This document shows, piece after piece, positions 18,146-55,977 of a stretch of 64,000 nt of DNA (position 1 is its first letter; the number at the start of each line of letters is the position of its first letter). The DNA is from Flavobacterium sp. HJ-32-4 (GTDB lineage Bacteria > Bacteroidota > Bacteroidia > Flavobacteriales > Flavobacteriaceae). Below the pieces are notes generated by a model. The model ran no database searches. It saw only the letters and a list, made by a program, of their open reading frames with translations, and had not been told where the DNA came from. The stretch lies in NCBI RefSeq assembly GCF_022532105.1, contig NZ_CP092832.1:372001-436000 (forward strand), read 5' to 3'. The translations under genes and the position numbers were made by a program.

Positions 18146-18153
18146 CAAAGATA
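18146..18153 (-). promoter_or_regulatory. -7 promoter box (TATCTTTG) of the small secreted protein gene
   Basis: Perfect TAnnTTTG on the minus strand, 19 nt before ATG 18126 and exactly 22 nt after the palindrome 18176-18190. Confidence 0.65.
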
Positions 18154-18175
18154 CCGACCTCCGTTTCGACGATTT

Positions 18176-18190
18176 TACGGGAAAACCGCA
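18176..18190 (-). promoter_or_regulatory. Palindromic operator-like site 1 (TGCGG-N5-CCGTA)
   Basis: On the minus strand the site reads TGCGGTTTTCCCGTA, one mismatch from perfect dyad symmetry. It ends 22 nt before the -7 box of the small secreted protein gene. Its surroundings (ATTTCATGCGG) are also shared with site 5. Confidence 0.6.
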
Positions 18191-18200
18191 TGAAATGTTA

Positions 18201-18221
18201 AACCCGGCCTTAGACCGGGTT
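18201..18221. terminator. Hairpin at the end of the RDD gene
   Basis: AACCCGG (18201-18207) pairs with CCGGGTT (18215-18221) and spans the RDD stop codon. The T run following it on the minus strand is weak, so termination is plausible but not certain. Confidence 0.45.
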
Positions 18222-18716
18222 TTCTGTTTCTGTTCCGAATGACTCGAAGTCGTCGTGAAGTCGTTTCGCCTCCTGCAGGCGTTTCTTATGCACCACATAG
18301 ACGTCCGGTATGCTGTCATGCATGCCGCGCGCTCCGTTGAAAAACGTGAGGAAATCAAACGGGATAATCCGGCAGAAGGTTCGTTTGATAATGGTGCCTG
18401 TACCCACGCGATCGCCGTTATAGTCTACGACGATTGTACCCGTGATTATCTTGCCCACCGTTTGTCCGCTGATCGACTCAAAGACCGCGTAATAGATCAA
18501 GCTCAGCCCGAGGGTAATCAGCGTATCCGTCAGGGTCGATATTTCCTGCGTCCACGACAGCCAGGAATCATCGCCTGTTACACCCGCTATGAAACCCAGC
18601 ATAAACATCAGAATGAGGATCACCGCATACACCACCAAACGGTCCAACACGGCGTGGGCAAAACGTAGCCAACTGCTCACCAACAAATCTTCTGTAACGA
18701 TATACGGTTGCCGCAT
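18210..18716 (-). CDS. RDD family membrane protein
   Basis: 168 residues with an RDD-type core: LRFAHAVLDRLVVYAVILIL at residues ~17-36 containing the Arg/Asp pair, a second helix, then LIYYAVFESISGQTVGKIITG and the RDD closing segment KRTFCRIIPFDFLTFF. RDD proteins are small integral membrane proteins of mostly unknown transport or scaffold function. The gene begins 12 nt after nrdA, so it may be co-transcribed with nrdB-nrdA. The functional link is not evident. Confidence 0.85.
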   Translation of the reverse strand: MRQPYIVTEDLLVSSWLRFAHAVLDRLVVYAVILILMFMLGFIAGVTGDDSWLSWTQEISTLTDTLITLGLSLIYYAVFESISGQTVGKIITGTIVVDYNGDRVGTGTIIKRTFCRIIPFDFLTFFNGARGMHDSIPDVYVVHKKRLQEAKRLHDDFESFGTETENPV

Positions 18717-18728
18717 ACTTTAATCTCT

Positions 18729-21140
18729 TTACGACCCACACATCTCACAATCTTCCGGGCCGGCGTTCTTCGAACGCTCGAGCATGGCGCGGAATTCCTC
18801 GGCCGACATGGCCTCATTCTCCTCAACGGTAACCGCCACGGCAGCCGGTTCAGCCACGGCTTGTTCTTTTTTGTCGTTGTTGAGGGTAAACTTGATGGCA
18901 TCCACCGCCGATTTCGTACGCAGGTAATACATACCTGTCTTCAGGCCTGACTGCCAGGCGTAGAAGTGCATCGACGTGAGTTTCGCATAGTTCGCGCCCT
19001 CCATGAACAGGTTGAGCGATTGCGACTGATCAATGAAGTACCCGCGCTGACGCGACATGTCAAGAATGTCTTTCATCGACATCTCCCACACGGTCTTATA
19101 AAGGTCTTTGATATCCTGCGGAATCTGGTCAATGCTTTGGATCGACCCGTTGTTCCGCATGATTTCCTGTTTCAGTGTTTCGTTCCAGATACCGGCTTCC
19201 ACCAGGTCTTCGAGCAAGTGTTTGTTGACAACGATGAACTCGCCCGACAGCGTACGACGGGTATAGATGTTCGACGTATACGGTTCAAACGCCTCGTTGT
19301 TCCCTAAAATCTGTGAGGTAGATGCGGTTGGCATCGGCGCCACGAGCAGCGAGTTGCGAACTCCATGCTCCATCACTTCCTTACGAAGCGAGGCCCAGTC
19401 CCACCGACCCGACAAATCCGAATCTTTCAATCCCCACAGGTTGAATTGGAACTCCCCTTTTGAAATCGGTGATCCCTCGAAGGTTGAATACGGTCCTTCC
19501 TCCTTCGCCATTTCCATAGAGGCGGTAACGGCGGCAAAGTAGAGCGTTTCGAAGACCTCCTGGTTCAACTGCTTCGCCTCGTCGCTGGTGAACGGCATAC
19601 GGAGCATGATAAAGGCATCGGCAAGACCCTGCACTCCCAATCCGACCGGACGGTGGCGCATGTTCGAATTCTCGGCCTCGATCAACGGATAATAGTTCCG
19701 GTCGATCACCTTGTTCAGGTTGCGCGTCACACGCTTGGTGACATCATAGAGTTTCTGGTGGTCGAACTTGCCGTTTTCGATAAACATCGGCAGCGAAATC
19801 GACGCGAGGTTACACACGGCAATCTCGTCCTTCGAGGTATACTCGATGATCTCCGTACACAGGTTCGACGAACGGATCGTACCCAGGTTCTTCTGGTTCG
19901 ACTTGCGGTTGGCCGCATCTTTATACAACATATACGGAAGTCCGGTTTCGATCTGTGATTCCAGGATTTTTTCCCAAATCTCACGTGCCTTTACCGTCTT
20001 ACGTCCGCGGTTCTCCGCTTCATATTTCGTATACAACGCATCGAATTCCTCGCTGTGCACGTCGTAGAGACCCGGACACTCGTTCGGGCACATCAACGTC
20101 CACAGGCCATCTTCCTGTACGCGTTTCATGAACAAATCCGGAATCCACATCCCAAGGAACAGGTCACGCGTACGCATCTCTTCCTTTCCGTGGTTTTTAC
20201 GAAGGTCAAGGAAGTCAAAGATGTCGGCGTGCCATGGTTCCACATAAATCGCAAACGATCCTTTCCGCTTACCGCCGCCCTGGTCGACATAACGCGCGGT
20301 GTCATTGAACACGCGCAGCATCGGCACAATTCCGTTTGACGTACCGTTGGTGCCGCGGATATACGATCCGGTAGCGCGGATGTTGTGGATCGAAAGCCCG
20401 ATACCACCCGCCGACTGCGAAATTTTCGCCGTTTGCTTCAATGTATCATAGATGCCGTCGATTGAGTCGTCCTGCATCGCCAGAAGGAAGCAGGAAGACA
20501 TTTGTGGTTTCGGTGTACCGGCATTGAAAAGCGTAGGTGTGGCGTGGGTGAAGAACTTCTTCGACATCAGCTCATATGTTTCGATCGCCGAATCGATGTC
20601 GTCGAGGTGAATTCCCACCGACACCCGCATCAGCATGTGCTGCGGACGTTCTACGATCTTGCCGTTGATTTTCAGCAGGTACGAGCGCTCAAGCGTTTTG
20701 AAGCCGAAGTAATCGTAACCGAAATCACGGGTATAGATGATAGCCGAGTCAAGACGTTCGGCGTTCGCCATGATCACTTCGTAGGCCTCATCCGACACCA
20801 GCGGCGATGCCTTTCCGGTGCGTGGGTTCACGTAGTGGTACATATCCGACATCGTCTCAGAGAACGACTTCTTGGTGTTTTTGTGCAGGTTCGACACGGC
20901 GATACGTGCCGCCAACTGGGCATAATCAGGGTGCGTCACCGTCATGGCCGCCGCGGTTTCAGCTGCCAGGTTATCAAGTTCCGATGTGGTGACGCCGTCA
21001 TACAATCCTTCGATTACGCGCATGGCCACCTTTACCGGATCGACCAATTCGTTGAGCCCGTAGCACAACACTTTAACCCGTTCCGTGATTTTATCGAACA
21101 TCACCGGCTCCCGCTTGCCGTCTCTTTTTACTACATACAT
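18729..21140 (-). CDS. nrdA: Ribonucleoside-diphosphate reductase, large subunit (class I)
   Basis: 803 residues. It reduces ribonucleoside diphosphates to deoxy forms with NrdB. Residues 1-95 form an ATP-cone allosteric domain ([21 protein letters not shown]). The ten-stranded barrel carries one redox Cys in PQMSSCFLL, the finger-loop thiyl-radical Cys in SSNLCTEI, and the second redox Cys further on in [12 protein letters not shown]. The C-terminal shuttle pair is CEMCGS, the last six residues. An acidic, Ala/Val-rich linker (about 765-785) precedes it. The upstream nrdB is in the same direction but separated by 258 bp. A 14-nt sequence shared with the nrdB promoter region (21155-21168) suggests nrdA also has its own start. 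Confidence 0.97.
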
Positions 21141-21154
21141 ACGCTTTTCCCTTT

Positions 21155-21168
21155 AAAGATTGGTAATT
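21155..21168 (-). promoter_or_regulatory. 14-nt element upstream of nrdA shared with nrdB
   Basis: The minus strand reads AATTACCAATCTTT, 13 of 14 bases identical to AATTGCCAATCTTT upstream of nrdB (22436-22449). It includes a weak -7-like AATCTTTA and lies just before the nrdA start codon. Confidence 0.4.
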
Positions 21169-21204
21169 TATTTAGGTGGTTAGTTGTCTTTGTTTTGGCG
21201 CCTT

Positions 21205-21345
21205 TTCCGGCTGTCCGCTTTAGCTTTCTTGCCCCAGCCTGTTTTTGGCAACGGCTTCGCCAGCTTCCTCCGGTCGCGGTCGCCGCCGTGCAAAAACGAG
21301 GCTTTCGCTGCGAAAGGCTACCGCTTCCATCCGGGGCGGAAATAT
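21205..21345 (-). repeat. Structured spacer between nrdB and nrdA, repeat-like
   Basis: This non-coding stretch contains several inverted repeats, for example CTTTCGC-T-GCGAAAG (21302-21316) and a GGC...GCC hairpin around 21247. Read on the minus strand it contains CCCCGGATGGAAGCGG early and AAAGCGGACAGCCGG late. From memory, blocks of this form (a GCCCCGATGGAAGCGG start and an AAAGATACAGCGGA-like end) recur in intergenic regions of Flavobacteriaceae genomes. No second copy is visible in this window. Boundaries are approximate. Confidence 0.35.
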
Positions 21346-21398
21346 TCTTCAATCAAATAATCGGAGACCGGAAACGTGTCCGGCAATCGGCGGATACG

Positions 21399-22376
21399 CT
21401 AGAAATCGGCGTCGAACGTGATTTTTTGTGAGTCGGCATCTTTTGACAACACGCCGGCTTTCTGGTATTCCGATACCCGCTTCTCGAAGAAATTGGTTTT
21501 CCCCTGCAGCGAGATCATGTCCATGAAATCAAACGGATTGGATCCGTTGTATACGCGGTCGCAACCCAGTTCCACTAACAAACGGTCGGCTACGAACTCG
21601 AGGTATTGTGTCATCAGCGCCGCATTCATCCCGATGAGGCTGACCGGCAACGACTCGGTAACGAATTCCCTCTCAATGTTCAATGCATCCACGATAATCT
21701 CCTTGATACGCGCCTTCGGCACTTTGTTCACCAGGTGATGGTTGTGGAGGTGTACGGCGAAATCGCAGTGAACGCCTTCGTCACGCGAGATCAACTCGTT
21801 TGAGAACGTAAGTCCGGGCATAAGTCCGCGTTTCTTCAACCAAAAGATCGAGCAGAAAGCCCCCGAGAAGAAGATGCCTTCTACGGCAGCAAATGCGATG
21901 AGGCGCTCGGCAAACGAATCCGATTGTATCCAGCGAAGGGCCCAATCGGCTTTCTTCTTGATGGCCGGAAACACTTCGATGGCATGGAACAATTTGTCTT
22001 TTTCCACTTCATCCTTTACATACGTATCGATGAGCAGCGAGTAGGTTTCGCTGTGGATGTTCTCCATCATGATCTGGAAACCATAGAAGAACTTCGCTTC
22101 CGGATACTGCACCTCATTCACGAAATTCTCGGCGAGGTTCTCGTTCACGATGCCATCCGATGCTGCGAAAAACGCCAGGATGTGCTTGACGAAATATTTT
22201 TCATCCGCCGTCAGCTTGTTGTTCCAGTCGTTGAGATCCTGGTGCAGGTCGATTTCCTCGGCAGTCCAGAAACTGGCCTCCATTTTCTTGTACCATTCCC
22301 AGATATCGTGGTGTTTGATAGGAAATATTACAAAACGGTTCTTGTTTTCCGTCAATATCGGTTCAATCGCTGCCAT
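21399..22376 (-). CDS. nrdB: Ribonucleoside-diphosphate reductase, small subunit (class I)
   Basis: 325 residues from the ATG at 22376. It is a ferritin-like protein that generates the radical for NrdA. Helices with metal ligands are visible in [33 protein letters not shown] (ligand residues and the putative radical Tyr), [17 protein letters not shown] and [16 protein letters not shown]. The longer in-frame start at 22502 would add 42 residues without family similarity and lies upstream of the -7-like box at 22435-22442, so I reject it. nrdA follows in the same direction. Confidence 0.96.
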
Positions 22377-22435
22377 TTTTCGTGTGTCTTTTGGGGTTGT
22401 TGCGAAGGGTTTCTTCCCTCCGTTTCGACCTTTAC

Positions 22436-22449
22436 AAAGATTGGCAATT
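22436..22449 (-). promoter_or_regulatory. nrdB promoter region element, shared with nrdA
   Basis: The minus strand reads AATTGCCAATCTTT, followed by G, so AATCTTTG matches the -7 consensus except for the first base. It lies about 60 nt upstream of the nrdB ATG. Confidence 0.45.
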
Positions 22450-22531
22450 TTGCACCCGAATGAAAGCCAAACTTTTCCACAATCGGGCGTAGTTTTTAAC
22501 AACGGGGTTTTTTTCCGACGGAAATAAATTA

Positions 22532-22551
22532 ATTTACAAATAACTGTAAAT
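22532..22551. promoter_or_regulatory. Perfect inverted repeat ATTTACA-N6-TGTAAAT
   Basis: A 7+6+7 palindrome between nrdB and the PhoX-like gene, about 155 nt upstream of nrdB. Its size and symmetry fit a dimeric helix-turn-helix regulator, for example of the CRP/FNR type. It is not a recognisable NrdR box. Confidence 0.45.
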
Positions 22552-22818
22552 GAATTATTTGCAAATTGTTACGAAACTGTTTTCGAACCGATTCAACACC
22601 GCCGAACCGCCCAAAAACAAAGCGATTTCGCCCAATTCAGGGGGCCGTTTCCCCATGCCCGAAACCGGCACGTGCGGCAACCAACATCCCTTATTTATAT
22701 CCAGTTTACGCAGTAACAATTTCGTAAAGCGCGCTCGACTTCATTTTCCTTTTAAACAACCTTCCCATAGGATAGCCGTAACATCATGGCAGTAGTTTTA
22801 CACAACAAAAAACTCACC

Positions 22819-24282
22819 ATGAAAAACACTATTTTTCCACTGATCGGCGCAGCTGCCCTGCTCGTCGCAGGATGTAATGACGACAACGGCCCCGGCGTCA
22901 ACAAGAACATCGACTTTACTACCACTTCATCGGTACCGCCTTTGGTGTACCCAATGACCGGATTCGAAGACATGGAGATCACCACCCTGATTTCCAGCGA
23001 AGACATCCTTCCGGAATCACCGAACTTCGTGTATGGTGCACAGCCGGATGGTGCCGGACTTATGAAAGACCCAGACAGCGATGGCTACATCCTGATTTCC
23101 AACCACGAAATCCTGAAATCGGTATCGCGCGTGTACCTTGATAAGGCTTTCAAACCGGTTAAAGGCGAATACATCGTAGACGGTATCGGCGGCATGACCC
23201 GTTTGTGTTCGGCTACGCTCGCAACGCCGAGTATCCATGGCTTTGGCCCCATGTTCCTCACAGCCGGCGAAAGTGGCGAGGAAAGTCTGGTGCACGGCAT
23301 CGATCCGTTTAGCCCGACAAGCGATCGCGCCCGCACAGACCGTGTGCTTCCGGCCCTTGGCAAAGCCTCAATGGAGAACGCCGTTCCGCTTCCGAAAGGC
23401 GTTTATGGCAACAAAACGGTCATCCTCATCGGCGAAGACCAATCCTACTCTTCGGCACACACCAGCGCCGGTCAGCTCATCATGTATGTCAGCAACACCG
23501 TGGGCGACCTTGAAAACGGCAAACTGTATGTCCTGAAGCGCAATGACGGCAACCAGGTCGAAACCGCGATAACAGTAGGTACTGAATATCCGGTCTCATG
23601 GGTCGAAATCCCTAATGCGAAAAACCTCACCGGAGCGGTCATCAATACTACGGCCAACAGCCTGGGCGCAATTCGCTTCTCACGTGTGGAAGATGTCGAC
23701 TACCGCAAAGGAAGCAAGTCGAACAACCGCGAAATCTATTTCACCGCGACAGGTCAGGCAAGCGCCGGCCAGCCGGTTGAAGGTTATACGATGTGGGGAC
23801 GCGTCTACCGTCTGAAAATGGACGCCAACGATCCGTTGAAAGGCGTTATTGATCTTGTAGCCGAAGGTGACAGTACGCCGGGAACAGGCCTTATCAATCC
23901 TGATAACCTTTGTGTGACCGAAAACTTCGTGTACATCCAGGAAGACGGCGACAGCTACTATACGGCCGCACAGCACGATTCTTATATCTGGCAGTACAAC
24001 ATTGCGAGCAAGGCTTTGAAGCCGTGGCTTAACATGAACCACAAACGCAACGATGCCGCTTGGAACAGCCGTTTCAACCAGACCAACGAAATGCGTTATG
24101 GCAGTTGGGAATATGGCGCGATGATCGACATTTCAGATATCATTGGCGTACCCAACACCTTTATGGTTAACATCCACCCGCACACCTGGCAGAAAGATGC
24201 CTTCCTGAATGCTGACGGCAGTGGCACGAACACCAATAAGGAAGGTGGCCAAACCGTTATCATCCGCAACGTAGAACGATAG
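22819..24282 (+). CDS. PhoX/DUF839-like lipoprotein
   Basis: 487 residues with a lipoprotein signal (MKNTIFPLIGAAALLVAGC, Cys19). The mature protein looks like a beta-propeller of the PhoX/DUF839 family: DGYILISNHEILKSVSRVYLD near the N-terminus and LINPDNLCVTENFVYIQEDG near the C-terminus, the latter matching the PDNL...EDG metal-site segment of PhoX-type calcium/iron-dependent alkaline phosphatases. Phosphatase activity is inferred only. The start is at ATG 22819 because the upstream ATG 22786 lies before the partial -7 box and adds residues ahead of the signal peptide. A strong terminator at 24306-24334 separates it from the peroxidase gene. Confidence 0.8.
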   Translation: MKNTIFPLIGAAALLVAGCNDDNGPGVNKNIDFTTTSSVPPLVYPMTGFEDMEITTLISSEDILPESPNFVYGAQPDGAGLMKDPDSDGYILISNHEILKSVSRVYLDKAFKPVKGEYIVDGIGGMTRLCSATLATPSIHGFGPMFLTAGESGEESLVHGIDPFSPTSDRARTDRVLPALGKASMENAVPLPKGVYGNKTVILIGEDQSYSSAHTSAGQLIMYVSNTVGDLENGKLYVLKRNDGNQVETAITVGTEYPVSWVEIPNAKNLTGAVINTTANSLGAIRFSRVEDVDYRKGSKSNNREIYFTATGQASAGQPVEGYTMWGRVYRLKMDANDPLKGVIDLVAEGDSTPGTGLINPDNLCVTENFVYIQEDGDSYYTAAQHDSYIWQYNIASKALKPWLNMNHKRNDAAWNSRFNQTNEMRYGSWEYGAMIDISDIIGVPNTFMVNIHPHTWQKDAFLNADGSGTNTNKEGGQTVIIRNVER

Positions 24283-24305
24283 TACACAAACAACTATTTT
24301 ACCTT

Positions 24306-24334
24306 AAGCAACCCCGGCCCCATGGGGTTGCTTT
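24306..24334 (+). terminator. Rho-independent terminator after the PhoX-like gene
   Basis: AAGCAACCCC (24306-24315) pairs with GGGGTTGCTT (24324-24333) around an 8-nt loop. It ends 11 nt before the start of the next gene. Confidence 0.75.
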
Positions 24335-24344
24335 CGTTTACAAT

Positions 24345-26126: not shown

Positions 26127-26136
26127 AGAAAGAACA

Positions 26137-26709: not shown

Positions 26710-26714
26710 GGCGG

Positions 26715-26722
26715 CAAATATA
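26715..26722 (-). promoter_or_regulatory. -7 promoter box (TATATTTG) of the DUF3109 gene, 5 nt before the ATG
   Basis: Perfect TAnnTTTG on the minus strand separated from the ATG by CCGCC. It predicts a leaderless or nearly leaderless mRNA. Confidence 0.6.
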
Positions 26723-26928: not shown

Positions 26929-26947
26929 CAGGCCGAAATTATAGACT

Positions 26948-34650: not shown

Positions 34651-34665
34651 TACGGAAAAACCGTA
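34651..34665 (+). promoter_or_regulatory. Palindromic operator-like site 2 (TACGG-N5-CCGTA)
   Basis: TACGGAAAAACCGTA, a perfect dyad with 5-nt spacer. It ends 22 nt before the -7-like box TACATTTA (34688-34695) of the ORF6N gene, whose ATG is at 34712. Confidence 0.65.
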
Positions 34666-34711
34666 ACCACTCTACCAACGGGTGCCTTACATTTAGCGGA
34701 AATTCCGATAG

Positions 34712-45724: not shown

Positions 45725-46138
45725 TTAGGATTTGGCTTTGATCTTCGTCTTAGGGTCGGGTTTTGCTGCAGGTTTGTCCTCTGTCACCACGATCTTCGAC
45801 GGATTGAACATCTGAGGAATGGTACTGCCGCTTTTGGCGTCGACCACGACTTTTCCTTTGACGAGAATTTGCTTACCGTTAAGTGCGTCCAACTTGATCT
45901 TCATCCGTTCTGCGTATTTGGGCGCAATGGCGACGGTAAAGACGTTATTCGGGAATCCTTTGTCGACGTTGATGTAAGCGGGTGCCCGCTCATCGGACGG
46001 CATCTTTACCGAGGCGACTTTTCCCTTCACCCATACATCGCGACCCACATAGTCTTTAATAACGGCGGTGGTGATGGTATCCTGCGAAAACCCGGCGAGG
46101 CCTAACAGCAGGAAACACAGGCAACATAGCTGTTTCAT
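45725..46138 (-). CDS. Secreted OB-fold-like protein, unknown function
   Basis: 137 residues with a signal peptide (MKQLCCLCFLLLGLAGFSQ). The mature ~110 residues look like a single small beta-barrel: AVIKDYVGRDVWVKGKVASVK, APAYINVDKGFPNNVFTVAI and NGKQILVKGKVVV are the strand pattern of extracytoplasmic OB-fold domains near nucleases. It ends in a Lys/Pro-rich tail (KPAAKPDPKTKIKAKS). The function is unknown. It lies directly downstream of the secreted nuclease-like gene, and is expressed from its own promoter preceded by palindrome site 3. Confidence 0.75.
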   Translation of the reverse strand: MKQLCCLCFLLLGLAGFSQDTITTAVIKDYVGRDVWVKGKVASVKMPSDERAPAYINVDKGFPNNVFTVAIAPKYAERMKIKLDALNGKQILVKGKVVVDAKSGSTIPQMFNPSKIVVTEDKPAAKPDPKTKIKAKS

Positions 46139-46157: not shown

Positions 46158-46165
46158 CAAAGGTA
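46158..46165 (-). promoter_or_regulatory. -7 promoter box (TACCTTTG) of the OB-fold-like/3-HAO operon
   Basis: Perfect TAnnTTTG on the minus strand, 19 nt before ATG 46138 and exactly 22 nt after palindrome site 3. Confidence 0.65.
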
Positions 46166-46187: not shown

Positions 46188-46202
46188 TACGGAAAAACCG
46201 TA
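46188..46202 (-). promoter_or_regulatory. Palindromic operator-like site 3 (TACGG-N5-CCGTA)
   Basis: On the minus strand TACGGTTTTTCCGTA, a perfect dyad, ending 22 nt before the -7 box. Its upstream edge abuts the T run of the terminator of the preceding gene. Confidence 0.65.
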
Positions 46203-47337: not shown

Positions 47338-47384
47338 AACAATGTACATTAAATTAACATCAATATTTAACGCGAAAGCGGAAG

Positions 47385-47392: not shown

Positions 47393-47412
47393 GATAATAT
47401 TAATTAATCGTG

Positions 47413-47420
47413 TACCTTTG
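47413..47420 (+). promoter_or_regulatory. -7 promoter box (TACCTTTG) of the TonB receptor operon
   Basis: Perfect TAnnTTTG 56 nt before ATG 47477. The -33 regions of this and the opposing promoter must overlap each other's -7 boxes. Confidence 0.6.
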
Positions 47421-47476
47421 CCGCCGTTAAGAAAAAGTTTATTCTCAACAAAACACGTTTAATATTCGTAACTTTT

Positions 47477-50317
47477 ATGAAAAAACTAGTATTCAGTATT
47501 TTATTTGCAATGCTGGCGGTTGTGGGATGGGCTCAGGACAAGCCCGCCTCGGCAGTGCTGACCGGAAAGGTGGTCGATGCCAAATCACAGAAGCCGATGC
47601 AGAGCGCCGTCGCGACGATCGAAAATACCTCGTTCATGGGGTTGGCCGACGCGGAAGGCGTTTTTCGGATTGAAGGCGTCACCGGCGGAAAGCAGATGGT
47701 GCGTATCAGCAGCACGGGCTATTCCGATAAATTGCTTCCGATTGACCTGAAAGACGGACAAACACTCGATCTTGGTATCGTGGTGTTGGAGGAAGACCAA
47801 ACTTCGGAGCAGCAACTCGCACTTATCACCCTGACCGAAAACGACCTGGGCGACGACAACAGTGGTTCGGAAAGTACATCCGGACTTCTGCAGGCCACCC
47901 GCGACACCTATCAGCAGGCAGCGGCCTTCAACTGGGGACAAGCCCGTTTCCGGGTTCGCGGCCTTGACAATGAATACGGTACTACTATGATAAACGGCAT
48001 CGTCATGAATAAAATTTATGACGGAAGGCCACAATGGAGCAACTGGGGTGGACTTAACGACGCAACGCGTAACCAGGAATTCACAACAGGATCGGCTCCG
48101 TCTGACTACATTTTTGGCGGCGTTCTGGGCACACAGGAAATCAATACCCGTGCCTCACTTTACCGTCCGGGTACGCGTCTTTCAGCGGCAGGCACCAACA
48201 CCAACTATACCTGGCGCACGATGGCCACCCATGCATCCGGTATGAGTCCGGACGGATGGGCCTACGTCATTTCAGCGGGCTACCGCGGTGCGAAAGAAGG
48301 CTATTTTGAAGGAACCGATTACGATGCCCTTTCGTTGTTCGCCAGCGTGGAAAAACGCCTTTCTGACCGTCACTCATTGAACTTTACCGCAATCTATGCA
48401 CAGAACAGCCGCGGAAAGAACTCTCCAAACACACAGGAAGTTACCGATTTAGCGGGCGTAAAATACAACTCCTACTGGGGTTGGCAGGATGGCAAAAAAC
48501 GGAATTCACGCGATAAAGACGTCGAAGAGCCGATTTTCATCCTGAGCCATTTCTGGAAAATCAACGACCGTAACCGCCTCAACACCAACGTATCGTACCA
48601 AACAGGTAAAATCGGCAACAGCCGTTTCGACCAGCAGAATGCGAACAACCCGGATCCTTCTTACTACCGCAACCTTCCGAGCTATTACCTGAACTACGGT
48701 ACGTTCGATGACCAGTTCAACTTTACACACCTGCCGGATCTGACCGGTGCTGCGGCGGCTAAGGATTTCTTCCTTGCCAACCGTCAAATCAACTGGAATG
48801 CGATCTACGAAGCCAACCAGAACACAGTAAACGGAAACAGCGCGGTCGTGTTGTATGAAGACCGTACCGACGACACACAGTGGTCGGCCAACTCCATCTT
48901 CAGCTCTACCCTTAGCGACAATATCGACCTGAATGCAGGTGTGAACTTCCGTCGCCTGAAATCACATAACTTCCAGAACCTCCTGGACCTGTTGGGCGGA
49001 CAGTATTTCCTCGATATCGACACGTTCAACACCTCGATCTCGGACGACGCGACGCAAAGCGACCTCAATAACCCGAACCGTCAGGTAGGTGTGGGCGACA
49101 CATACGGTTACAACTACAACCTGTTTGCCACTACCATTGATGCCTTCACACAGTTCCGTTTCCGTTACCGGAAAGTCGATTTCTACCTTGCGCAGTCGTT
49201 CTCACGCAACGATTACAAGCGTGAAGGTCTGTACCGCAACGGCCTGTATGCCAACAATTCATTCGGCGACAGCAAAAACGCCGTCTTCGAGACATTTGGT
49301 TTCAAAGGAGGCGCTACCATCAAGATTACCGGGCGTCAATTCATCGACCTGAACGCGGTATATATGACCAAAGCACCTACGATGCGCAGCACATTCGCGA
49401 ATGCACGTCTGAACAACAATATCACACCTGACCTCGCACCTGAGCGCGTTACGGGAGGTGACATCAGCTATGTAATCCGTAATCCGAAATTCAAGGCGCG
49501 TCTTACCGGGTTCTATTCAAAAATGCAGAACACCACTGAACTTTCGTTCTTCTATGCGGAAAGCGTGGGCGACGAAACCAACGCAGAAGCGGATCAGGAT
49601 GCCTTCATCAGCGAAATCCTTACGGGAGCTGACAAGCAAAACATCGGGGCGGAACTTGGTTTGGAATACCAAATCACCTCTACCCTGAAGATAACAGGTG
49701 CCGCCAACTACGGGCAATACATCTACACCAACAACCCACGTCTTCGCGTAAATGATGACGCGTTGGCTACTGCCGACAACCAACAGCCTATCATTGACTT
49801 CGGAAAGGCTTACCTGAAAAATTACCGTGTAGCAGGAACGCCACAACAGGCGTACTCACTCGGATTGGAATACCGCGATCCAAAATTCTGGTGGGTCGGT
49901 GCCAATGTGAACTGGTTGGACGACAACTACCTCGACGTATCGAATATTCTCCGCACTGACAACTTCACCCTTGATTCAGGAGAAGGCGTATCATTCCCTG
50001 GCGCTGACGACGCTAATGTGCGTGCTGCGTTGAAACAAGAGAAATTCGACGGCTTCTCGCTGCTGAACGTAACAGGTGGTAAATCGTGGAAAGTAGGCGG
50101 AACCACTTTCGGGTTTTTCGCTACGATTAACAACGTACTTGATCGCGAATACAAAACAGGTGGCTTTGAGCAGTCACGTAAAGCGACCTATCCAGACTTC
50201 GTTCAGGATAACTCAAGTGTAGCGGCCGGCCTTGCAGGTGGGGCACGCGGATTCGGGCCGAAATATTTCTACGGCTACGGACGCACATTTTTCGTAAATT
50301 TCTATGTTAATTTATAA
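47477..50317 (+). CDS. TonB-dependent receptor with carboxypeptidase-like N-terminal domain
   Basis: 946 residues. Signal peptide (about 1-19), then a CarboxypepD_reg-like beta-sandwich (about 25-105: ASAVLTGKVVDAKSQKPMQS), a plug domain (about 120-240, with FRVRGLDNEYGTTMINGIVMN) and an outer-membrane barrel ending FVNFYVNL with an aromatic residue in the last strands. It imports a large or rare ligand using TonB energy. It lacks an adjacent SusD gene. Downstream come two lipoproteins at 6 and 5 nt spacing, so the three form an operon. It is divergent from a secreted nuclease-like protein, which suggests that products of nucleic acid or phosphodiester breakdown may be the ligand (inference). 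Confidence 0.92.
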   Translation: MKKLVFSILFAMLAVVGWAQDKPASAVLTGKVVDAKSQKPMQSAVATIENTSFMGLADAEGVFRIEGVTGGKQMVRISSTGYSDKLLPIDLKDGQTLDLGIVVLEEDQTSEQQLALITLTENDLGDDNSGSESTSGLLQATRDTYQQAAAFNWGQARFRVRGLDNEYGTTMINGIVMNKIYDGRPQWSNWGGLNDATRNQEFTTGSAPSDYIFGGVLGTQEINTRASLYRPGTRLSAAGTNTNYTWRTMATHASGMSPDGWAYVISAGYRGAKEGYFEGTDYDALSLFASVEKRLSDRHSLNFTAIYAQNSRGKNSPNTQEVTDLAGVKYNSYWGWQDGKKRNSRDKDVEEPIFILSHFWKINDRNRLNTNVSYQTGKIGNSRFDQQNANNPDPSYYRNLPSYYLNYGTFDDQFNFTHLPDLTGAAAAKDFFLANRQINWNAIYEANQNTVNGNSAVVLYEDRTDDTQWSANSIFSSTLSDNIDLNAGVNFRRLKSHNFQNLLDLLGGQYFLDIDTFNTSISDDATQSDLNNPNRQVGVGDTYGYNYNLFATTIDAFTQFRFRYRKVDFYLAQSFSRNDYKREGLYRNGLYANNSFGDSKNAVFETFGFKGGATIKITGRQFIDLNAVYMTKAPTMRSTFANARLNNNITPDLAPERVTGGDISYVIRNPKFKARLTGFYSKMQNTTELSFFYAESVGDETNAEADQDAFISEILTGADKQNIGAELGLEYQITSTLKITGAANYGQYIYTNNPRLRVNDDALATADNQQPIIDFGKAYLKNYRVAGTPQQAYSLGLEYRDPKFWWVGANVNWLDDNYLDVSNILRTDNFTLDSGEGVSFPGADDANVRAALKQEKFDGFSLLNVTGGKSWKVGGTTFGFFATINNVLDREYKTGGFEQSRKATYPDFVQDNSSVAAGLAGGARGFGPKYFYGYGRTFFVNFYVNL

Positions 50318-50323
50318 TTTGCT

Positions 50324-50965
50324 GTGATGAAGAAGATTGTAACAAAAACTATGATCCTGGCGGCCTTTGCTATGGCCTTTACAGGATGTGTCCAGGACGA
50401 CGACACCGCACAGCCAAATGTGCTCGTCCCGTTCTATTCTGAGAATTTTAATACCATCACCCAAGACCAAGACGGCAACGTGTTTGATTTTACGGGATGG
50501 ACGAATTTCGCAGAGAAAGGCACCAAACTCTGGACAAAAGAGTATTATCGTGGTGATGGAACGCCACAGTTTAACCCGTACGGGTCTGGACAGGCGCAGA
50601 ACATTACGTGGCTCATCAGCCCGATGATTGAATTTGGGGCCGACAACCTCAACCCGGGCTTTACGTTCCAGTCGGCCCAGAACTTCGTAAGCGATGTCGT
50701 CAATAACACTATTGAGGTATACGTTTCGTCGGATTATGACGGCACCCACGTATTGGATGCCACTTGGGTAAAAATGGACAATGTAAGGATTGCGACTCCG
50801 GACGACGGAGGCTACAACTTTGTAAATGCCGGTAGTTTTGACCTTTCACAGTTTGTGGATGCCGGACATGTGTACATAGCCTTCCGCGCTATCGGATCGG
50901 GTTCAAACACGTCACTTGACGGACTTTACCAACTCAACAATCTTTACGTTTACAACCAAAAATAA
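50324..50965 (+). CDS. Lipoprotein with choice-of-anchor J domain
   Basis: 213 residues with lipoprotein signal (MILAAFAMAFTGC). The mature part is a single beta-sandwich of the choice-of-anchor J / cleaved-adhesin type: FYSENFNTITQDQ at the start, TWLISPMIEFG in the middle and VYIAFRAIGSGSNTS near the end. These domains bind carbohydrate or protein ligands at the surface in Bacteroidota. It sits 6 nt after the TonB receptor gene and 5 nt before a DUF5689 lipoprotein, so it is probably part of the same outer-membrane complex. Confidence 0.85.
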   Translation: MMKKIVTKTMILAAFAMAFTGCVQDDDTAQPNVLVPFYSENFNTITQDQDGNVFDFTGWTNFAEKGTKLWTKEYYRGDGTPQFNPYGSGQAQNITWLISPMIEFGADNLNPGFTFQSAQNFVSDVVNNTIEVYVSSDYDGTHVLDATWVKMDNVRIATPDDGGYNFVNAGSFDLSQFVDAGHVYIAFRAIGSGSNTSLDGLYQLNNLYVYNQK

Positions 50966-50970
50966 TCGAA

Positions 50971-52377
50971 ATGAAAGTATTCAAGTATACGGCGGCGTTC
51001 GCCATGATGGCTTTGCTGGCCAGTTGTGCGGCTGACGACGATTACAGCGCGCCTACCGAGTCGGCCTGTACGACCCTTACGCCCACCAAAACGGTAGCCG
51101 AGGTAACAACCGGTCTTACAAATGAAGAAGCACAGTATCTGGGCGATGATATCATCGAAGCCTACGTTACATCCAGTGACGAAGGTGGTGTGTTCTACAA
51201 ATCCATCTCAATGGTATCGACAGATGGCGCCATCGGCTTTTCTGTGCCGGTAGACGCCTATAACCTCTATACCAAATATGAGCCAGGACGGAAAGTGTAC
51301 ATCCGTATGAAAGACCTGTATCTGGTAAACAGCGATCAATATGATATCGGTATCCAGATCGGTGGACTTTACAATGGCAACACGCCGACGGACCCGAGCG
51401 ATGATGAAGTGGGCCGTCTGTCAGGTGTAACGTACCAAAACATCCTAATCAAATCTTGCGATAAGGTAAACGAAGATGATTTGGTGAACCATGTGACCAT
51501 CACGCAACTGCTCAATGACAGCTACCTGAACAAACTGGTAGAACTTGACAATGTTCAGTTCAACGATGCGTCGCAGGGTAAGAAATACTACGATCCAAGC
51601 CTGAACGATTTGGGCGGTGCTACCAACCACCTGTTGCAGGACGTGTATAACAACACGGTTATCTTCCGTCTCAGCAGCTTTGCCGTATTCAACCAGAAAC
51701 TCGTCCCGGCCGGAAGTGGAAAGATCCGCGGTGTATTGACAAAATACAACGGCGACTACCAACTGATTCCCCGTACGGAAAACGATATCAAACTCGACCA
51801 ACCGCGTATCGCTGTTGACCTCGCGGCACCTATCGTAGGAACCGACCTGCAGTTCCGCAGTAACTTCGTTGAGAACTTCACCAGCTATCCTACCACACCT
51901 ACCGCTGCAAGCCGCGTTTTTGCGCCGTATATCAACGACCCGTTCGTAGGTAGCCGTTACTGGGAAACGAAGACTTTCAGCGGTAATAAGTACATCCAGA
52001 TGACATCGTTTGGCGGTACACCGGAAGTGAACCGTACGCTGTTTTATGTCCCTGTAGATTTCGGAGGCGCCAACAACCTGTCATTCAAAACAAAAGCCGG
52101 ATTTGACAACGGTGCGAAACTGAAAGTATACTACCTGAAAGCAGAAGATTATACGCCAGGACAGCCTTTGGATGAAAGCAAACTCGTTGAAATTACAACG
52201 TCTTTCACCATTTCAGCCGGACAGACATCGGGTTATCCGACGAACTTTACCAATAGTGGTGTGTATGCGATTCCTGGAACCCTGACTGGAAATGGATACT
52301 TCGTATTCGAATACAGCGGTGATGGCACCAGCGGCCTTACGACTACGATGCAGATTGACGACATTACAGTGAACTAA
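50971..52377 (+). CDS. DUF5689 domain lipoprotein
   Basis: 468 residues with lipoprotein signal (AAFAMMALLASC). Residues ~45-275 match DUF5689 (IIEAYVTSSDEGGVFYKSI, IRMKDLYLVNSDQYDIGIQIG, KIRGVLTKYNGDYQLIPRTENDI), an OB-like extracellular domain. Residues ~285-468 are a second beta-sandwich of the choice-of-anchor J type (FVENFTSYPT, GSRYWETKTFSGNKYIQM, IDDITVN at the end). It is last in the TonB receptor operon, followed by a terminator at 52401-52427. Probably surface-exposed ligand-binding partner of the receptor. Confidence 0.87.
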   Translation: MKVFKYTAAFAMMALLASCAADDDYSAPTESACTTLTPTKTVAEVTTGLTNEEAQYLGDDIIEAYVTSSDEGGVFYKSISMVSTDGAIGFSVPVDAYNLYTKYEPGRKVYIRMKDLYLVNSDQYDIGIQIGGLYNGNTPTDPSDDEVGRLSGVTYQNILIKSCDKVNEDDLVNHVTITQLLNDSYLNKLVELDNVQFNDASQGKKYYDPSLNDLGGATNHLLQDVYNNTVIFRLSSFAVFNQKLVPAGSGKIRGVLTKYNGDYQLIPRTENDIKLDQPRIAVDLAAPIVGTDLQFRSNFVENFTSYPTTPTAASRVFAPYINDPFVGSRYWETKTFSGNKYIQMTSFGGTPEVNRTLFYVPVDFGGANNLSFKTKAGFDNGAKLKVYYLKAEDYTPGQPLDESKLVEITTSFTISAGQTSGYPTNFTNSGVYAIPGTLTGNGYFVFEYSGDGTSGLTTTMQIDDITVN

Positions 52378-52400
52378 TTAGTTCCTGTTTTGATGTATAG

Positions 52401-52427
52401 AAAAGGCCTCCGTTTGGAGGCCTTTTT
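52401..52427. terminator. Bidirectional terminator after the DUF5689 gene
   Basis: AAAAGGCCTCC (52401-52411) pairs with GGAGGCCTTTT (52416-52426) around a 4-nt loop, with A and T runs on either side, serving both convergent operons. Confidence 0.85.
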
Positions 52428-52446
52428 ATTTCTATCGAAAGGTATT

Positions 52447-53247
52447 TTACTGCCCTTCGATCCGTTCTTTAAATGCTGACCACTCCGCTGCCCTAAGCGT
52501 TTGCGTTTTACCTGTTGCCCGTCCTTTGACGCGTTTCAGGATTACCCGGGCCCGTTCCTCCGAATCGGGGTGCGTGGAAATCCAATTCATTGCCTCCGGC
52601 AAATCCCCTTTTGAGGCTAACTGAAAGAAGAAATCTGCGAGGGGTTTCGGATCGATTCGGGCTTCCATCAAATAACTGACACCGGTATAATCGGCTTCCT
52701 CTTCCAAACTGCGGTCGTAAGCGCTTGAAGAAAGCAACCGGATGAGTCCGTGCACCTGTGAAGCCCTGCCTCCACTGACAATCGACAACAACGCTGACAG
52801 GCCGATTTCTTTCGACAATTTCTGCATGACGTGGTTTTTCTGTATATGGGCTACCTCATGCGCCAACACACCTTGTAAGGCTTCCTGGTTGGGACAATCC
52901 GTAATAAGTCCGGAATAGACGGCCAGGTGGCGATCAGGCAGTGCGAAGGCGTTGACCTCGTCATTTCGGATAAGGTGTATTTTTAGCGAATCACGTGGGA
53001 TGCCGGCCTCTTTACAGATCGGATCAAGCAACCGCCCAAGTGTTTCGTTAAGCGAGTCGTCGTAGATGATCTCTTCGGTGGTTTCTACCTGTGTCCATAT
53101 CAGATCGCCTAATTGTTGTTCGGTAGAATTCCGGATGTTCTTTACGTGGAAAAACGAAACGTAATCGAGCTGTGAAAAGCCGTACCACAGCGCCAGGAAC
53201 AGGCCAAGCGTGGCCACTCCCTGCAAAAAGGTTCGTGTTGGGTTCAT
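52447..53247 (-). CDS. M48 family metallopeptidase
   Basis: 266 residues from ATG 53247. One N-terminal membrane helix (about 10-25), then the M48 catalytic domain with zinc motif LAHEVAHIQKNH, the third ligand Glu in RSLEEEADYTGVSYL, and DSLKIHLIRNDEVNAFALP upstream of it. The active site should face the periplasm. Related proteins (BepA/LoiP-like) take part in envelope protein quality control. The start is chosen because ATG 53247 overlaps the previous stop by 4 nt (ATGA). It is last of four coupled genes. Confidence 0.92.
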   Translation of the reverse strand: MNPTRTFLQGVATLGLFLALWYGFSQLDYVSFFHVKNIRNSTEQQLGDLIWTQVETTEEIIYDDSLNETLGRLLDPICKEAGIPRDSLKIHLIRNDEVNAFALPDRHLAVYSGLITDCPNQEALQGVLAHEVAHIQKNHVMQKLSKEIGLSALLSIVSGGRASQVHGLIRLLSSSAYDRSLEEEADYTGVSYLMEARIDPKPLADFFFQLASKGDLPEAMNWISTHPDSEERARVILKRVKGRATGKTQTLRAAEWSAFKERIEGQ

Positions 53248-53675
53248 TTCCGGCACAGGATATGAGCAAGTCCACCCACAAACCAGATCTCAACAGGGTG
53301 CCCTTTACGCACCTGTATGGCTGCATAGATAGTCGTGATGAACTCGGCTACGTTAAACAAAAAGATTGTTGACATATAGGCAAAATAGCGGTTGGTCGCC
53401 TGGTCATCGCCAAATACGATGTGCACCGTCCACCAAAATCCCACACTGTTCATGCAAAACAGCAACAACTGTGAGAGCAGGGCCTGGGTGCAGTGCCAAC
53501 GTACAAAATACGTTCCCCTCCGATTTCCCAGGAAGAAAATGGCCGTCGCCAATAAATTGATAATCGGAAGCGGTAGCCCCATAACGATGGCGATCAGCGA
53601 CATCAGGTAACTGTTCGAGGCTTTCTCCCGTTCATGATCCGACGGAACCGTTTGATGTATACCAATAGTATTCAT
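53244..53675 (-). CDS. DUF4870-like membrane protein
   Basis: 143 residues with about three or four membrane helices (LIAIVMGLPLPIINLLATAIFFLG, ALLSQLLLFCMNSVGF, AYMSTIFLFNVAEFITTIYA). GTYFVRWHCTQALLSQL fits DUF4870-type proteins, in which a conserved segment joins two helices. The function is unknown. Overlaps of 4 nt with both neighbours (53244-53247 and 53672-53675) show tight translational coupling and set the start at ATG 53675 rather than 53702. Confidence 0.8.
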   Translation of the reverse strand: MNTIGIHQTVPSDHEREKASNSYLMSLIAIVMGLPLPIINLLATAIFFLGNRRGTYFVRWHCTQALLSQLLLFCMNSVGFWWTVHIVFGDDQATNRYFAYMSTIFLFNVAEFITTIYAAIQVRKGHPVEIWFVGGLAHILCRK

Positions 53676-54076
53676 AGGTCTTTGTATATATTCCAAATCC
53701 AATTAAGCAGTACCAGCGCGACGAGAAAACTCGCAACGAGCGGTCGCCGCACCGTCTTTTCCATTCGGAGGTAGGCCGCCAGAAATGTCGACTTGCCCGT
53801 CAGCAGGTCTCCTATCACCCACAACGGTATTGTGAGCATCCCGGCGACTGCCAGTATGCCCAGTGGGTTCTTCGCCAATGAAGCCAAAACATGCCCCCTT
53901 AGAAGCAGGAGAGCGGCTCGCGTGGTCCCACAGGATGGGCACGGAACACCTGTTGCGCTATGGAACAGGCAAACCGGCTGCCGCCAATGCCAACCCGCAA
54001 AACCCTTTAGGTATAGGTAAGCAGAAGCAAAAAGGCAGGCTATCAGAACAAAACCGTATAACCTGCCTTTTTTCAT
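53672..54076 (-). CDS. DUF2752 membrane protein
   Basis: 134 residues with three predicted helices. The DUF2752 signature GVPCPSCGTTRAALLLLRG (residues ~43-61) is clear. The two Cys could bind metal or form a disulfide. The function is unknown. It follows the TM2 gene by 1 nt and overlaps the next gene by 4 nt. Confidence 0.9.
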   Translation of the reverse strand: MKKGRLYGFVLIACLFASAYLYLKGFAGWHWRQPVCLFHSATGVPCPSCGTTRAALLLLRGHVLASLAKNPLGILAVAGMLTIPLWVIGDLLTGKSTFLAAYLRMEKTVRRPLVASFLVALVLLNWIWNIYKDL

Positions 54077-54077
54077 T

Positions 54078-54416
54078 TTAGTACATCGCGCTTTGGAACG
54101 CCTGCATATTTTTCTCGCGGGTCGCGCCCATGATCAGAAACCAGTCAACAATACCCCAGATACCGAAACCTCCACACGTAAGAAGCTTTCCGATGCCCAT
54201 TCCGGTATCGCCAATGTAAAAACGGTCAATGCCCAGGTTTCCGATCAGGATGGAGATGATCAACGCTGTTGTAGGGTCTTTGTACTGTACGGTTTGTATC
54301 ATGCCCCATTTAGAGTCATCTGCCTGCAGCAATTGCTCACGAATGGCGTGTAATTGGTAGCTTTCAAAGAACTTTCCGTTCGCCATCATGAACATGTCAA
54401 CTTTTTGTGAATCCAT
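54078..54416 (-). CDS. TM2 domain-containing protein
   Basis: 112 residues. A ~45-residue N-terminal cytoplasmic region precedes two helices of the TM2 domain (TTALIISILIGNLGIDRFYIGDTG, then GIGKLLTCGGFGIWGIVDWFLIMG) with the conserved DRFYIG turn. The function is unknown. First gene of the unit TM2-DUF2752-DUF4870-M48, with a -7-like box (TATTTTAG, minus, 54448-54455) 31 nt upstream. Confidence 0.9.
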   Translation of the reverse strand: MDSQKVDMFMMANGKFFESYQLHAIREQLLQADDSKWGMIQTVQYKDPTTALIISILIGNLGIDRFYIGDTGMGIGKLLTCGGFGIWGIVDWFLIMGATREKNMQAFQSAMY

Positions 54417-54461
54417 TTTGTATGTTTTAATTGGTGTTTTGTGTGGTCTAAAATAGGAAAA

Positions 54462-55811
54462 TTATTGAAAGCCACTGTCAATAGGCTCCCACAATTCGAT
54501 TTTGTTTCCCTCCGGATCCAATATCCAGGCGAACTTCCCATATTCATAGCTCTCCGGCGCGCCTACTAACGTCACGCCTTCTGCACGCAGTTTTTCGAGT
54601 AAACCATCCAGGTCGTGCACCCTGAAGTTTTGCATAAACGGCTTTTCACTGGGCTCAAAATAACGCGTCGAATCCGAAAAAGGCGCCCAATTCGTAAGGC
54701 CGTCGTTACCGTCTTTGTCCTTCCACATAAATGCCCATCCATAATCGCCGGCGTCAATGCCCAGGTGTTGGTTGTACCAGGCTGAAAGCGCCTTCGCGTC
54801 CTTCGCCTTGAAGAAAAACCCACCAATGCCGGTCACCCGAACATCCTTTTGTGTTTCCAGCAGCGGATGAAACAATGCTAGTACCTTATCCGCGATAACC
54901 GTAGCCAGCCGCTCATGGCTTTCGAACGTCCACCCGGCGATATGGGGCGACAACAATACATTATCCGCTTGCGTGAGGTACCTCAGCGGTTCAGGTATAC
55001 CATCCGTAAACAGGGTTTCGAAGGATGATCGCTCATACTCCAATACATCTAGGGCGGCACCCAACACTTTTCCCGACTGTAAGGCCTGTACCAAATCAGC
55101 CGTCACGACGTTCTTACCCCTAGAGGTATTCACCAGCCAAAACGGCTTCGCGAACGACGCGATGAAGTCTGCATCGACCATCTTGTCGGTCTCAGGCGTC
55201 CACGGAATATGCAGCGATAAAACGTCCGCTTTTTGCTGTAGTTCCTCCAATGTCACCTGACGGGCATTGGCATCTGCAAGACCCGAGCGGATATCATGGA
55301 AAAGTACGTCGACTTCAAAACCGCGCAACTTCCGCGCGAAGGCTTTGCCCATGTTCCCATAACCGATGATGCCCACCGTCTTTCCGTCGAGTTCATGCCC
55401 GCGGTTCGATTCGCGGTTCCACTTCCCCTGTCCTACCTCACGATCGGCCCGTTTCAGGTTGTTGAAGAGCGCCAGTAACATCCCCAGTGCCTGCTCGGCG
55501 ACCGCATTCCGGTTCCCTTCCGGTGCGGCAATCAGTTGGATGCCTTTCGATGCGGCGTATTCGGTATCGATGCTTTCGAGTCCGGCGCCAACGCGGGCTA
55601 TGAATTTCAAATTCGGCGCCGCGTTCAGGAATGCCCGGTCAATGGGGAAGCGACTGCGGATGACGATGCCGTCATAAGCACCGATTTTCGATTCGATGAC
55701 GTCTTTTGACGAGGTATAATCCGTGTCGTTCTGGATGCCGCCAGCCTCTAATTTCGCTATGAGAGCGGCATGATTCGAGTCTAGGTGCAACACCTTTATT
55801 GTTTGTTCCAT
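54462..55811 (-). CDS. D-2-hydroxyacid dehydrogenase fused to a VOC (glyoxalase-like) domain
   Basis: 449 residues. Residues 1-~320 are a phosphoglycerate dehydrogenase-like enzyme: substrate-domain start IKVLHLDSNH, NAVAEQALGMLLAL, NAD loop TVGIIGYGNMGKAFARKL, catalytic Arg in LVNTSRGKNVV, Glu in ALDVLEYE and His in LLSPHIAGWT. Residues ~326-449 form a complete VOC domain (VTGIGGFFFKAKDAKALSAW, then GKFAWILDPEGNKIELWEP), with almost no linker. Standalone relatives of both halves are common, so the fusion is unusual. The start at ATG 55811 is preferred over 55853, which lies upstream of the -7-like box 55837-55844. Two palindrome sites precede it. Confidence 0.88.
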   Translation of the reverse strand: MEQTIKVLHLDSNHAALIAKLEAGGIQNDTDYTSSKDVIESKIGAYDGIVIRSRFPIDRAFLNAAPNLKFIARVGAGLESIDTEYAASKGIQLIAAPEGNRNAVAEQALGMLLALFNNLKRADREVGQGKWNRESNRGHELDGKTVGIIGYGNMGKAFARKLRGFEVDVLFHDIRSGLADANARQVTLEELQQKADVLSLHIPWTPETDKMVDADFIASFAKPFWLVNTSRGKNVVTADLVQALQSGKVLGAALDVLEYERSSFETLFTDGIPEPLRYLTQADNVLLSPHIAGWTFESHERLATVIADKVLALFHPLLETQKDVRVTGIGGFFFKAKDAKALSAWYNQHLGIDAGDYGWAFMWKDKDGNDGLTNWAPFSDSTRYFEPSEKPFMQNFRVHDLDGLLEKLRAEGVTLVGAPESYEYGKFAWILDPEGNKIELWEPIDSGFQ

Positions 55812-55836
55812 ACATGTACCTATAGGTTGAATGCCG

Positions 55837-55844
55837 CAAAATGA
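55837..55844 (-). promoter_or_regulatory. -7-like box (TCATTTTG) of the dehydrogenase-VOC gene
   Basis: Matches TAnnTTTG except for one base, 25 nt before ATG 55811 and 23 nt after palindrome site 4. Confidence 0.5.
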
Positions 55845-55867
55845 GACACGCAAATTTTAACAAAAAG

Positions 55868-55882
55868 TACGGGTTTCCCGTA
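55868..55882 (-). promoter_or_regulatory. Palindromic operator-like site 4 (TACGG-N5-CCGTA)
   Basis: TACGGGAAACCCGTA on the minus strand, a perfect dyad whose symmetry extends into the spacer. It ends 23 nt before the -7-like box. Confidence 0.6.
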
Positions 55883-55962
55883 TCCAACAGTCCGCGCCAC
55901 TTCGTAAGGGACGCATCCGCCCCTCCCCTAACGCAATCTAAAGAATCCCGCCAACACCCTTT

Positions 55963-55977
55963 TACGGGGAAACCGCA
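55963..55977 (-). promoter_or_regulatory. Palindromic operator-like site 5 (TGCGG-N5-CCGTA)
   Basis: On the minus strand TGCGGTTTCCCCGTA, one base from perfect symmetry. A weak box TAGATTGC (55933-55940) follows after exactly 22 nt. Site and flank closely resemble site 1. Confidence 0.5.

Follow-up and report, generated by a model that had tools for sequence, protein, structure and literature searches.

ComA of Bacillus subtilis is a competence-linked response regulator of the NarL/LuxR type with a CGG-type dyad, TTGCGG-N4-CCGCAA, as its site, and it acts indirectly, through comS. A dyad of related appearance, TACGG-N5-CCGTA, recurs in a 64,000-nucleotide stretch of the Flavobacterium sp. HJ-32-4 genome (contig NZ_CP092832.1, positions 372,001 to 436,000, forward strand; hereafter the window) and, judging from sequence comparison, very probably serves as operator for an autoregulated two-component system of the NarL type. 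In contrast to ComA, the site is found here directly on the promoters of comEC, comF, comM, recA and ssb, and in another phylum. As in systems of the NarL/RcsB/VraR type, the candidate regulator has a receiver and a putative C-terminal helix-turn-helix (HTH) that aligns with NarL, a HisKA_3 kinase is present in the operon and the operator is a short dyad. It differs from them in a diverged HTH that the Pfam HTH model misses, in the 15-bp dyad with its N5 spacer, in a TPR sensor part that by eye appears periplasmic and in the sites at both ends of the operon.

According to the available part of a transformation screen in Riemerella anatipestifer, ComEC, ComF and RecA are essential for natural transformation; that part lists proteins of the machinery and names no regulator (PMC8459023). 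The three proteins have site-bearing counterparts in HJ-32-4, and the domain types of two other essential genes, DUF5689 and CarboxypepD_reg, are present in the window. In the literature on competence, regulators and REPINs in Bacteroidetes we found no report of the regulon described here, nor any account of how natural transformation is switched on in Bacteroidota, for which a candidate regulator, operator, promoter rule and gene list can now be offered.

The dyad occurs in the genome far beyond chance. The perfect form was found 49 times in 3.53 Mb, compared to 2 for the reversed control pattern, and TGCGG-N5-CCGTA added another 44 (20 + 24 by strand), compared to 18 (8 + 10) in the control. 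The spacing to the -7 box was analysed with 95 sites of the form T[AG]CGG-N5-CCG[TC]A from the stretches retrieved, read in both orientations (190 site-orientations). In 68 of the 190 a TA began at exactly 22 nt, whereas each of the other offsets between 10 and 44 gave 2–20; a box matching TAnnTTTG with a score of at least 5/6 appeared 30 times at 22 nt and 0–4 times at other offsets. With the 58 sites outside full repeat elements (described below), such a box was detected 28 times at spacing 22 and 0–3 times per other offset (14 to 31). Under a rough rule that classes about 86% of the sequence as coding in the retrieved loci and 94% in the window, 37 of the 49 perfect sites lie outside called open reading frames (ORFs) or no more than 60 nt from the start of one. 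The candidate regulon proposed in the first-pass annotation of the window is thus supported, as both the genome-wide excess over a control and the fixed 22-nt spacing held. Two sites with identical palindromes and flanks, at G000:C1:2905554 and 2923508 (L053 and L054; G000 is HJ-32-4), lie 18 kb apart inside called ORFs and represent a duplicated stretch.

Twenty-nine single promoters, meaning sites followed by a box and then a gene, were assembled by hand. The spacing was 22 nt in 25 of them, 23 in three and 21 in one, and the ORF began with an ATG 11–72 nt past the box start in 24. The proximal arm CCGTA was almost invariant (28/29), and the promoter-distal arm was TGCGG in 10. A -33 element, TTTG, is described for Bacteroides and Flavobacterium in the accessible part of PMC2483708; TTTG was detected in the -33 slot of just one of the 29 promoters. 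With its fixed position beside the -7 box and the -33 element nearly always missing, the site occupies the place expected of a class II activator, in agreement with the activator-like placement originally described for the window. In this model, phosphorylated dimers of the regulator would occupy the dyad, which lies upstream of the TAnnTTTG -7 box by about 22 bp, and take over the role of the missing -33 element.

Two further elements were seen at these promoters. A TTTAACA-type sequence precedes many palindromes by about 5 nt (for example, at 18191–18202 of the window), also in other species and with other half-sites; in HJ-32-4, TTAAC was present ahead of the palindrome in 13 of 32 promoter-type sites. 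In addition, an inverted repeat around AGACCTCAAAGGTTTT overlaps the -7 box or lies directly behind it in several palindrome promoters (L022:2500-2590, and also L004, L008, L010, L015, L023, L024, L034 and L096), with no Rfam match at gathering score.

The candidate regulator is a 220-aa response regulator encoded at G000:C1:930245-930907 (-) (locus L016), 494 kb away and thus outside the window, as had been supposed. Its operon encodes three TPR-membrane-HisKA_3 histidine kinases, whose apparent membrane topology, with the TPR sensor part in the periplasm, was read by eye, along with the response regulator, presumably their cognate partner. Pfam detected HisKA_3 (PF07730) and HATPase_c in kinase 1 and a receiver domain (PF00072, E 1.2e-9) in the regulator. 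Palindromes are located before kinase 1, before kinase 3 and just after the regulator gene, and two palindrome promoters of this genome drive TPR proteins with a histidine-kinase end. The profile of the regulator family aligns with NarL (1a04, E 1e-11) over the receiver and into the recognition helix of the HTH, which is diverged (S-x-x-I/V-E-K-R-K). Genome G342 has the same kinase-regulator arrangement, and the phosphatase and LytTR-type genes next to it (named by eye) are shared as well.

To place the system within Flavobacterium, the genus as judged from named comM relatives, perfect palindromes were counted in 398 genomes. HJ-32-4 had 49 (control 2), G342 44 (0), G144 35 (1) and G389, a genome 76% complete, 20 (1); intermediate counts were obtained for G207 (11, control 2), G204 (9, control 0) and G178 (8, control 0), and the other 391 carried 0–8, near background. 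When 36 genomes were searched with the regulator profile, the top ranks corresponded to exactly the four genomes with 20–49 palindromes, a ranking that is not independent, since two of them gave sequences to the profile and the remaining pair is closely related to G342. The same promoter is present in HJ-32-4 and G342/G144 before comEC, comF, comM, recG, recJ, the M23 peptidase gene (here also in G389) and the kinase operon; in G342/G144 a palindrome promoter also precedes Y1-like genes (named by eye). ComM of G144 is 75% identical to that of HJ-32-4 over 325 residues, compared to 84–88% for named relatives.

Among the best 80 of 559 relative comM loci, no TACGG-type dyad was detected in the 100 bp upstream of comM. 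Conservation upstream of orthologues, expected from the first-pass annotation, thus fails for most relatives examined, both at these 80 loci and by the near-background counts in nearly all of the 398 genomes, whereas the site is conserved at the regulator's own operon and at the seven targets in G342/G144. Evidence independent of the profile ranking comes from other genomes: a palindrome with a box at 21–23 nt lies just after the regulator gene in G207, G110, G348, G178, G325, G102 and G085, and a palindrome lies upstream of the kinase in G207, G110, G178, G001, G217 and G050. By one rule, 50 sites were counted in 298 kb of regulator loci (those of HJ-32-4 and the G342 group included) compared to 5 in 433 kb of comM loci. 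Sites at the start of the regulator operon, at its end or at both are thus present in many genomes of the genus. Comparing genomes that have a few sites with those that have about fifty shows the autoregulatory circuit in a small and in an expanded form.

Tandem units consisting, by eye, of a palindrome promoter, a short transcript and a terminator-like hairpin with a T-run were observed in G178, G325 and G204 (L272:5330-6120; L274:5150-5330 and 8040-8420; L229), with GGGGTTGT in common between those of L272 and L274. They look like arrays of small RNA genes, and their location at the regulator operon in G178 and G325 suggests that small RNAs are old partners of this two-component system.

The identity of one helix residue of the regulator was compared with the half-site at 47 regulator loci, which came from the better-scoring profile matches (35 of 36 and 261 of 298 genomes matched) and included loci without palindromes. 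A site qualified with C/T, G/A and G/C at half-site positions 3–5 and a box of at least 5/6, plus a TTAA flank if one arm pair failed, and the class was taken from the distal half of the first site. Loci L238, L259, L261, L302 and L270 (the last at a contig end) reach little or no sequence upstream of the kinase, and no regulator was extracted by the script from L260, L262, L263, L264 and L294. All 29 scorable loci were concordant: E was found with CGG in 18, D with CAG/TAG in nine, N with CAC in one and K with CAC in one. In the profile alignment the covarying residue faces the lysine of ESTVK in NarL, which we take to be, by our count, the base-contacting Lys188.

Some sites fell outside the rule or showed variants. 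Not counted were TACGT...CCGTA of G234 (residue E), a second G182 site, TACAT...CTGTA (residue D), and the perfect CGG palindromes with weaker boxes of G251, G394 and G248 (all with E). G178 has CGC in one half of two of its five sites, and the upstream site of G124 is CAC/GAC. In a midpoint-rooted tree of the regulators, all site-bearing loci fall among the 36 rows that one branch (support 100/98) separates from the remaining 11, which have no sites. As read by eye from this tree, in which G124 and HJ-32-4 form long branches, the changes from E to D, from D to N and from E to K are each paired with a change of half-site. The covariation provides a natural series on specificity change in NarL-type regulators and, together with the NarL-type regulator itself and the sites at its operon, supports the LuxR/NarL-type dimer that had been guessed as binder, dimer binding being a prediction.

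The genes straight behind the HJ-32-4 promoters encode, according to Pfam, ComEC, RecA, ComM, SSB, RadC, RecG, RecJ, RmuC and UPF0102/YraN, and also a PIF1-HTH_40 helicase, GIY-YIG and PDDEXK_3 nucleases, a Y1 transposase, three 23S_rRNA_IVP proteins, the M23 peptidase and the ORF6N protein of the window. ComF showed sub-threshold zinc-ribbon and phosphoribosyltransferase matches only, and it is 44% identical to the G342 protein behind the same promoter. The boxes of the ComF and RadC promoters score 4/6, and the RecJ and RmuC sites have one base changed in the distal arm. Counted by hand, 14 of 31 promoters (the 29 single ones plus RecJ and RmuC) drive uptake, recombination, nuclease or transposase genes. 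A rough enrichment test for recombination genes in a hand-assembled set gave 13/34, with p between 5e-14 and 4e-9 for base rates of 2–5%, to be taken as a guide only since base rate and set size were assumed. RAYT-like small proteins (named by eye) were also seen behind palindrome promoters of HJ-32-4 and G342 (L004:2567-3016, L217 and L187), that of L004 without a Pfam match at E 0.001.

Palindromes are also found at each end of a repeat element of 109–111 bp with a conserved core and TTAACA-type flanks, present in 34 copies in the DNA retrieved (at least 34 in the genome), some of them clustered, with three close together in each of L036 and L060, for example. Thirty-seven of the 95 sites fall in full elements of this constant length. 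One arm has a -7-like box of at least 4/6 in 32 of the 34 copies, and the opposite arm has TAAGGGAC-type sequence in the box position, scoring 2/6 in 32 of the 34. In the examples printed, the predicted transcript from the first arm has GGGGCG-GAUG-CGUCCC as a hairpin at its 5' end, and a second hairpin is formed in most cases by the far palindrome. The mean folding z over the 34 elements was -2.1 (simple shuffles), compared to -0.9 in the other direction. We interpret the element as a putative small RNA gene under a promoter of the same kind. Arm likeness was 8.6 of 22 within elements and 8.9 between them (permutation p 0.90), so that no long hairpin is kept. Rfam searches of 16 sources of palindrome elements or tandem arrays (six by E-value, 10 by gathering score) gave nothing at gathering score; sub-threshold Phe_leader matches of 30 and 33 bits (cut-off 55) were obtained within or close to the L272 and L229 arrays. 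Flavo-1 RNA (RF01705) lies near palindrome sites, with no overlap, at L045:796-878, L223:1705-1782 and L022:1600-1684.

These elements raise the question of whether the palindromes are repeats of the REPIN or miniature inverted-repeat transposable element type, spread by a Y1 (RAYT-like) transposase, with promoter placement being secondary. As in the REPIN/RAYT systems covered by the accessible parts of PMC3116915 and PMC3733652, palindromes stand at both ends of the repeat, and the sole Y1_Tnp gene (PF01797) found by Pfam in the genome carries a palindrome in the promoter region, right before the start of the gene; the 37 sites within full elements and the inverted-pair elements that the G342 group has of its own also fit. 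However, the conserved tag and hairpin-forming arms of REPINs are absent, the flank being of TTAACA type instead of the GTAG or CGTC given in what is accessible of PMC3733652, and one arm is promoter-like with a predicted RNA hairpin behind it. Moreover, 32 of the other 58 sites (three in more diverged element copies and one inside a gene) have a box of at least 5/6 at 21–23 nt, and the site flanks the regulator operon even in genomes with just background numbers of palindromes. A REPIN reading of paired sites 95 bp apart was dropped because the arms are non-complementary within elements and the -7-like box is on one arm only, and spread by a transposase seems on the whole unlikely.

The presence of recA, ssb, recG and recJ among the targets would also fit an SOS operator, although to our knowledge comEC, comF and comM are not among the SOS genes in the usual lists. 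The non-canonical LexA-like (S24-family) repressors of Bacteroidetes likewise have DNA repair targets and N5 dyads, GGA-N5-TCC and CTAA-N5-TTAG in the available sections of PMC8565304. Neither motif corresponds to the arms TRCGG-N5-CCGTA; a site fixed some 22 bp ahead of the -7 box, where no -33 element is present, is easier to reconcile with activation than with repression, and the copies at the operon of the response regulator vary together with the helix of that protein. An S24/LexA-like operator was set aside on arms and position, and we regard it as very improbable. A comparably small chance is given to a third possibility, that the palindrome belongs to another regulator which also controls the two-component operon. 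The link to the NarL-type regulator is predicted from sequence, and a LytTR-type regulator gene (named by eye) adjoins the operon in HJ-32-4 and G342; against this, LytTR sites are direct repeats, and the half-site tracks a single recognition-helix position of the NarL-type regulator at all the scorable loci.

Class II activation by the NarL-type regulator and control of competence are thus the best reading of these data. The system would activate the operon that encodes it together with the small secreted gene next to it, and in HJ-32-4 this control would have been extended to some 30 promoters, many of which belong to DNA-uptake, recombination and nuclease genes, as well as to the small-RNA-gene-like repeat in at least 34 copies. 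As one explanation, operator, class II activation, self-regulation and extension to DNA-uptake genes are likely to be right. Several results weigh against it. Eighteen of the 47 regulator loci had no qualifying site; the D regulators form one clade with N inside, so that the covariation rests on few events, and the sole K regulator (G124) is on a long branch. The Pfam LuxR-type HTH model gave no match to the regulator at E <= 0.1, and the regulators of HJ-32-4 and G342 are only 35% identical, so that their shared regulon could be convergent. Many site-bearing promoters drive genes without a known tie to DNA uptake, and no qualifying site was found near dprA or the DUF5689 genes of HJ-32-4 (the latter gene in the window) and G342. 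A wider proposal is that a circuit whose reach in most Flavobacterium is limited to its own operon and to small genes or RNAs flanking it has, in two lineages or more, come to control DNA uptake and recombination globally, with the operator multiplied by regulator-driven small RNA repeats and one helix residue setting the half-site; we put this forward tentatively, as possible and somewhat doubtful.

In the window itself, a re-scan returned the five dyads first described, with the same coordinates and arms, and the distances to their boxes were again 22, 22, 22, 23 and 22 nt (scores against TAnnTTTG of 6/6, 5/6, 6/6, 5/6 and 4/6). With up to two mismatches the motif showed a mild excess, 39 versus 26 ± 5 in shuffled sequence, with 1 of 100 shuffles as high. 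On the minus strand, the palindrome TGCGGTTTTCCCGTA (18176–18190, with TTTAACATTTCA before it) and the box TATCTTTG (18146–18153) precede, as its first gene, that of a 97-aa protein (17833–18126) with a secreted-looking N-terminus and no Pfam match. On the plus strand, TACGGAAAAACCGTA (34651–34665) and the box TACATTTA (34688–34695) precede an ORF6N-domain protein (PF10543; 34712–35215), whose ATG is 24 nt past the box start. The third promoter, again on the minus strand, has TACGGTTTTTCCGTA (46188–46202) and the box TACCTTTG (46158–46165) before the gene of a 137-aa protein (45725–46138) with a secreted-looking N-terminus and weak OB-fold-type matches (tRNA_anti_2 and DUF4131, both below the Pfam cut-off; DUF4131 is present also in ComEC of this genome). 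A 3-hydroxyanthranilate dioxygenase gene (PF06052; 45176–45718) follows downstream on the same strand.

The other two dyads do not correspond to ordinary promoters, as had been assumed, but are the two ends of a single 110-bp repeat copy, with its TTAACA-type flanks, on the minus strand (55857–55988; palindrome 55868–55882, core TAAGGGACGCATCCGCCCCTCCCC..., palindrome 55963–55977). The -7-like box TAGATTGC (55933–55940, minus strand) scores 4/6 and lies 22 nt inward from the palindrome at 55963, and the box TCATTTTG (55837–55844, minus strand; 5/6), 23 nt outward from that at 55868, may be a chance match. Downstream of the element is a 2-hydroxyacid dehydrogenase-glyoxalase fusion (54462–55853, minus strand), called from a TTG as putative start. 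The earlier count of five sites was also incomplete, as a sixth, perfect palindrome was missed at 1469–1483 (plus strand), within a called ORF, with the box TAAATTGG at 22 nt (5/6) and a DUF3127 protein gene downstream (1711–2100, plus strand). Finally, the DUF5689 gene of the window (50971–52377) is preceded by a CarboxypepD_reg gene (47477–50317), with no qualifying palindrome in front, and both resemble by domain two transformation-essential genes of R. anatipestifer in the available part of PMC8459023.

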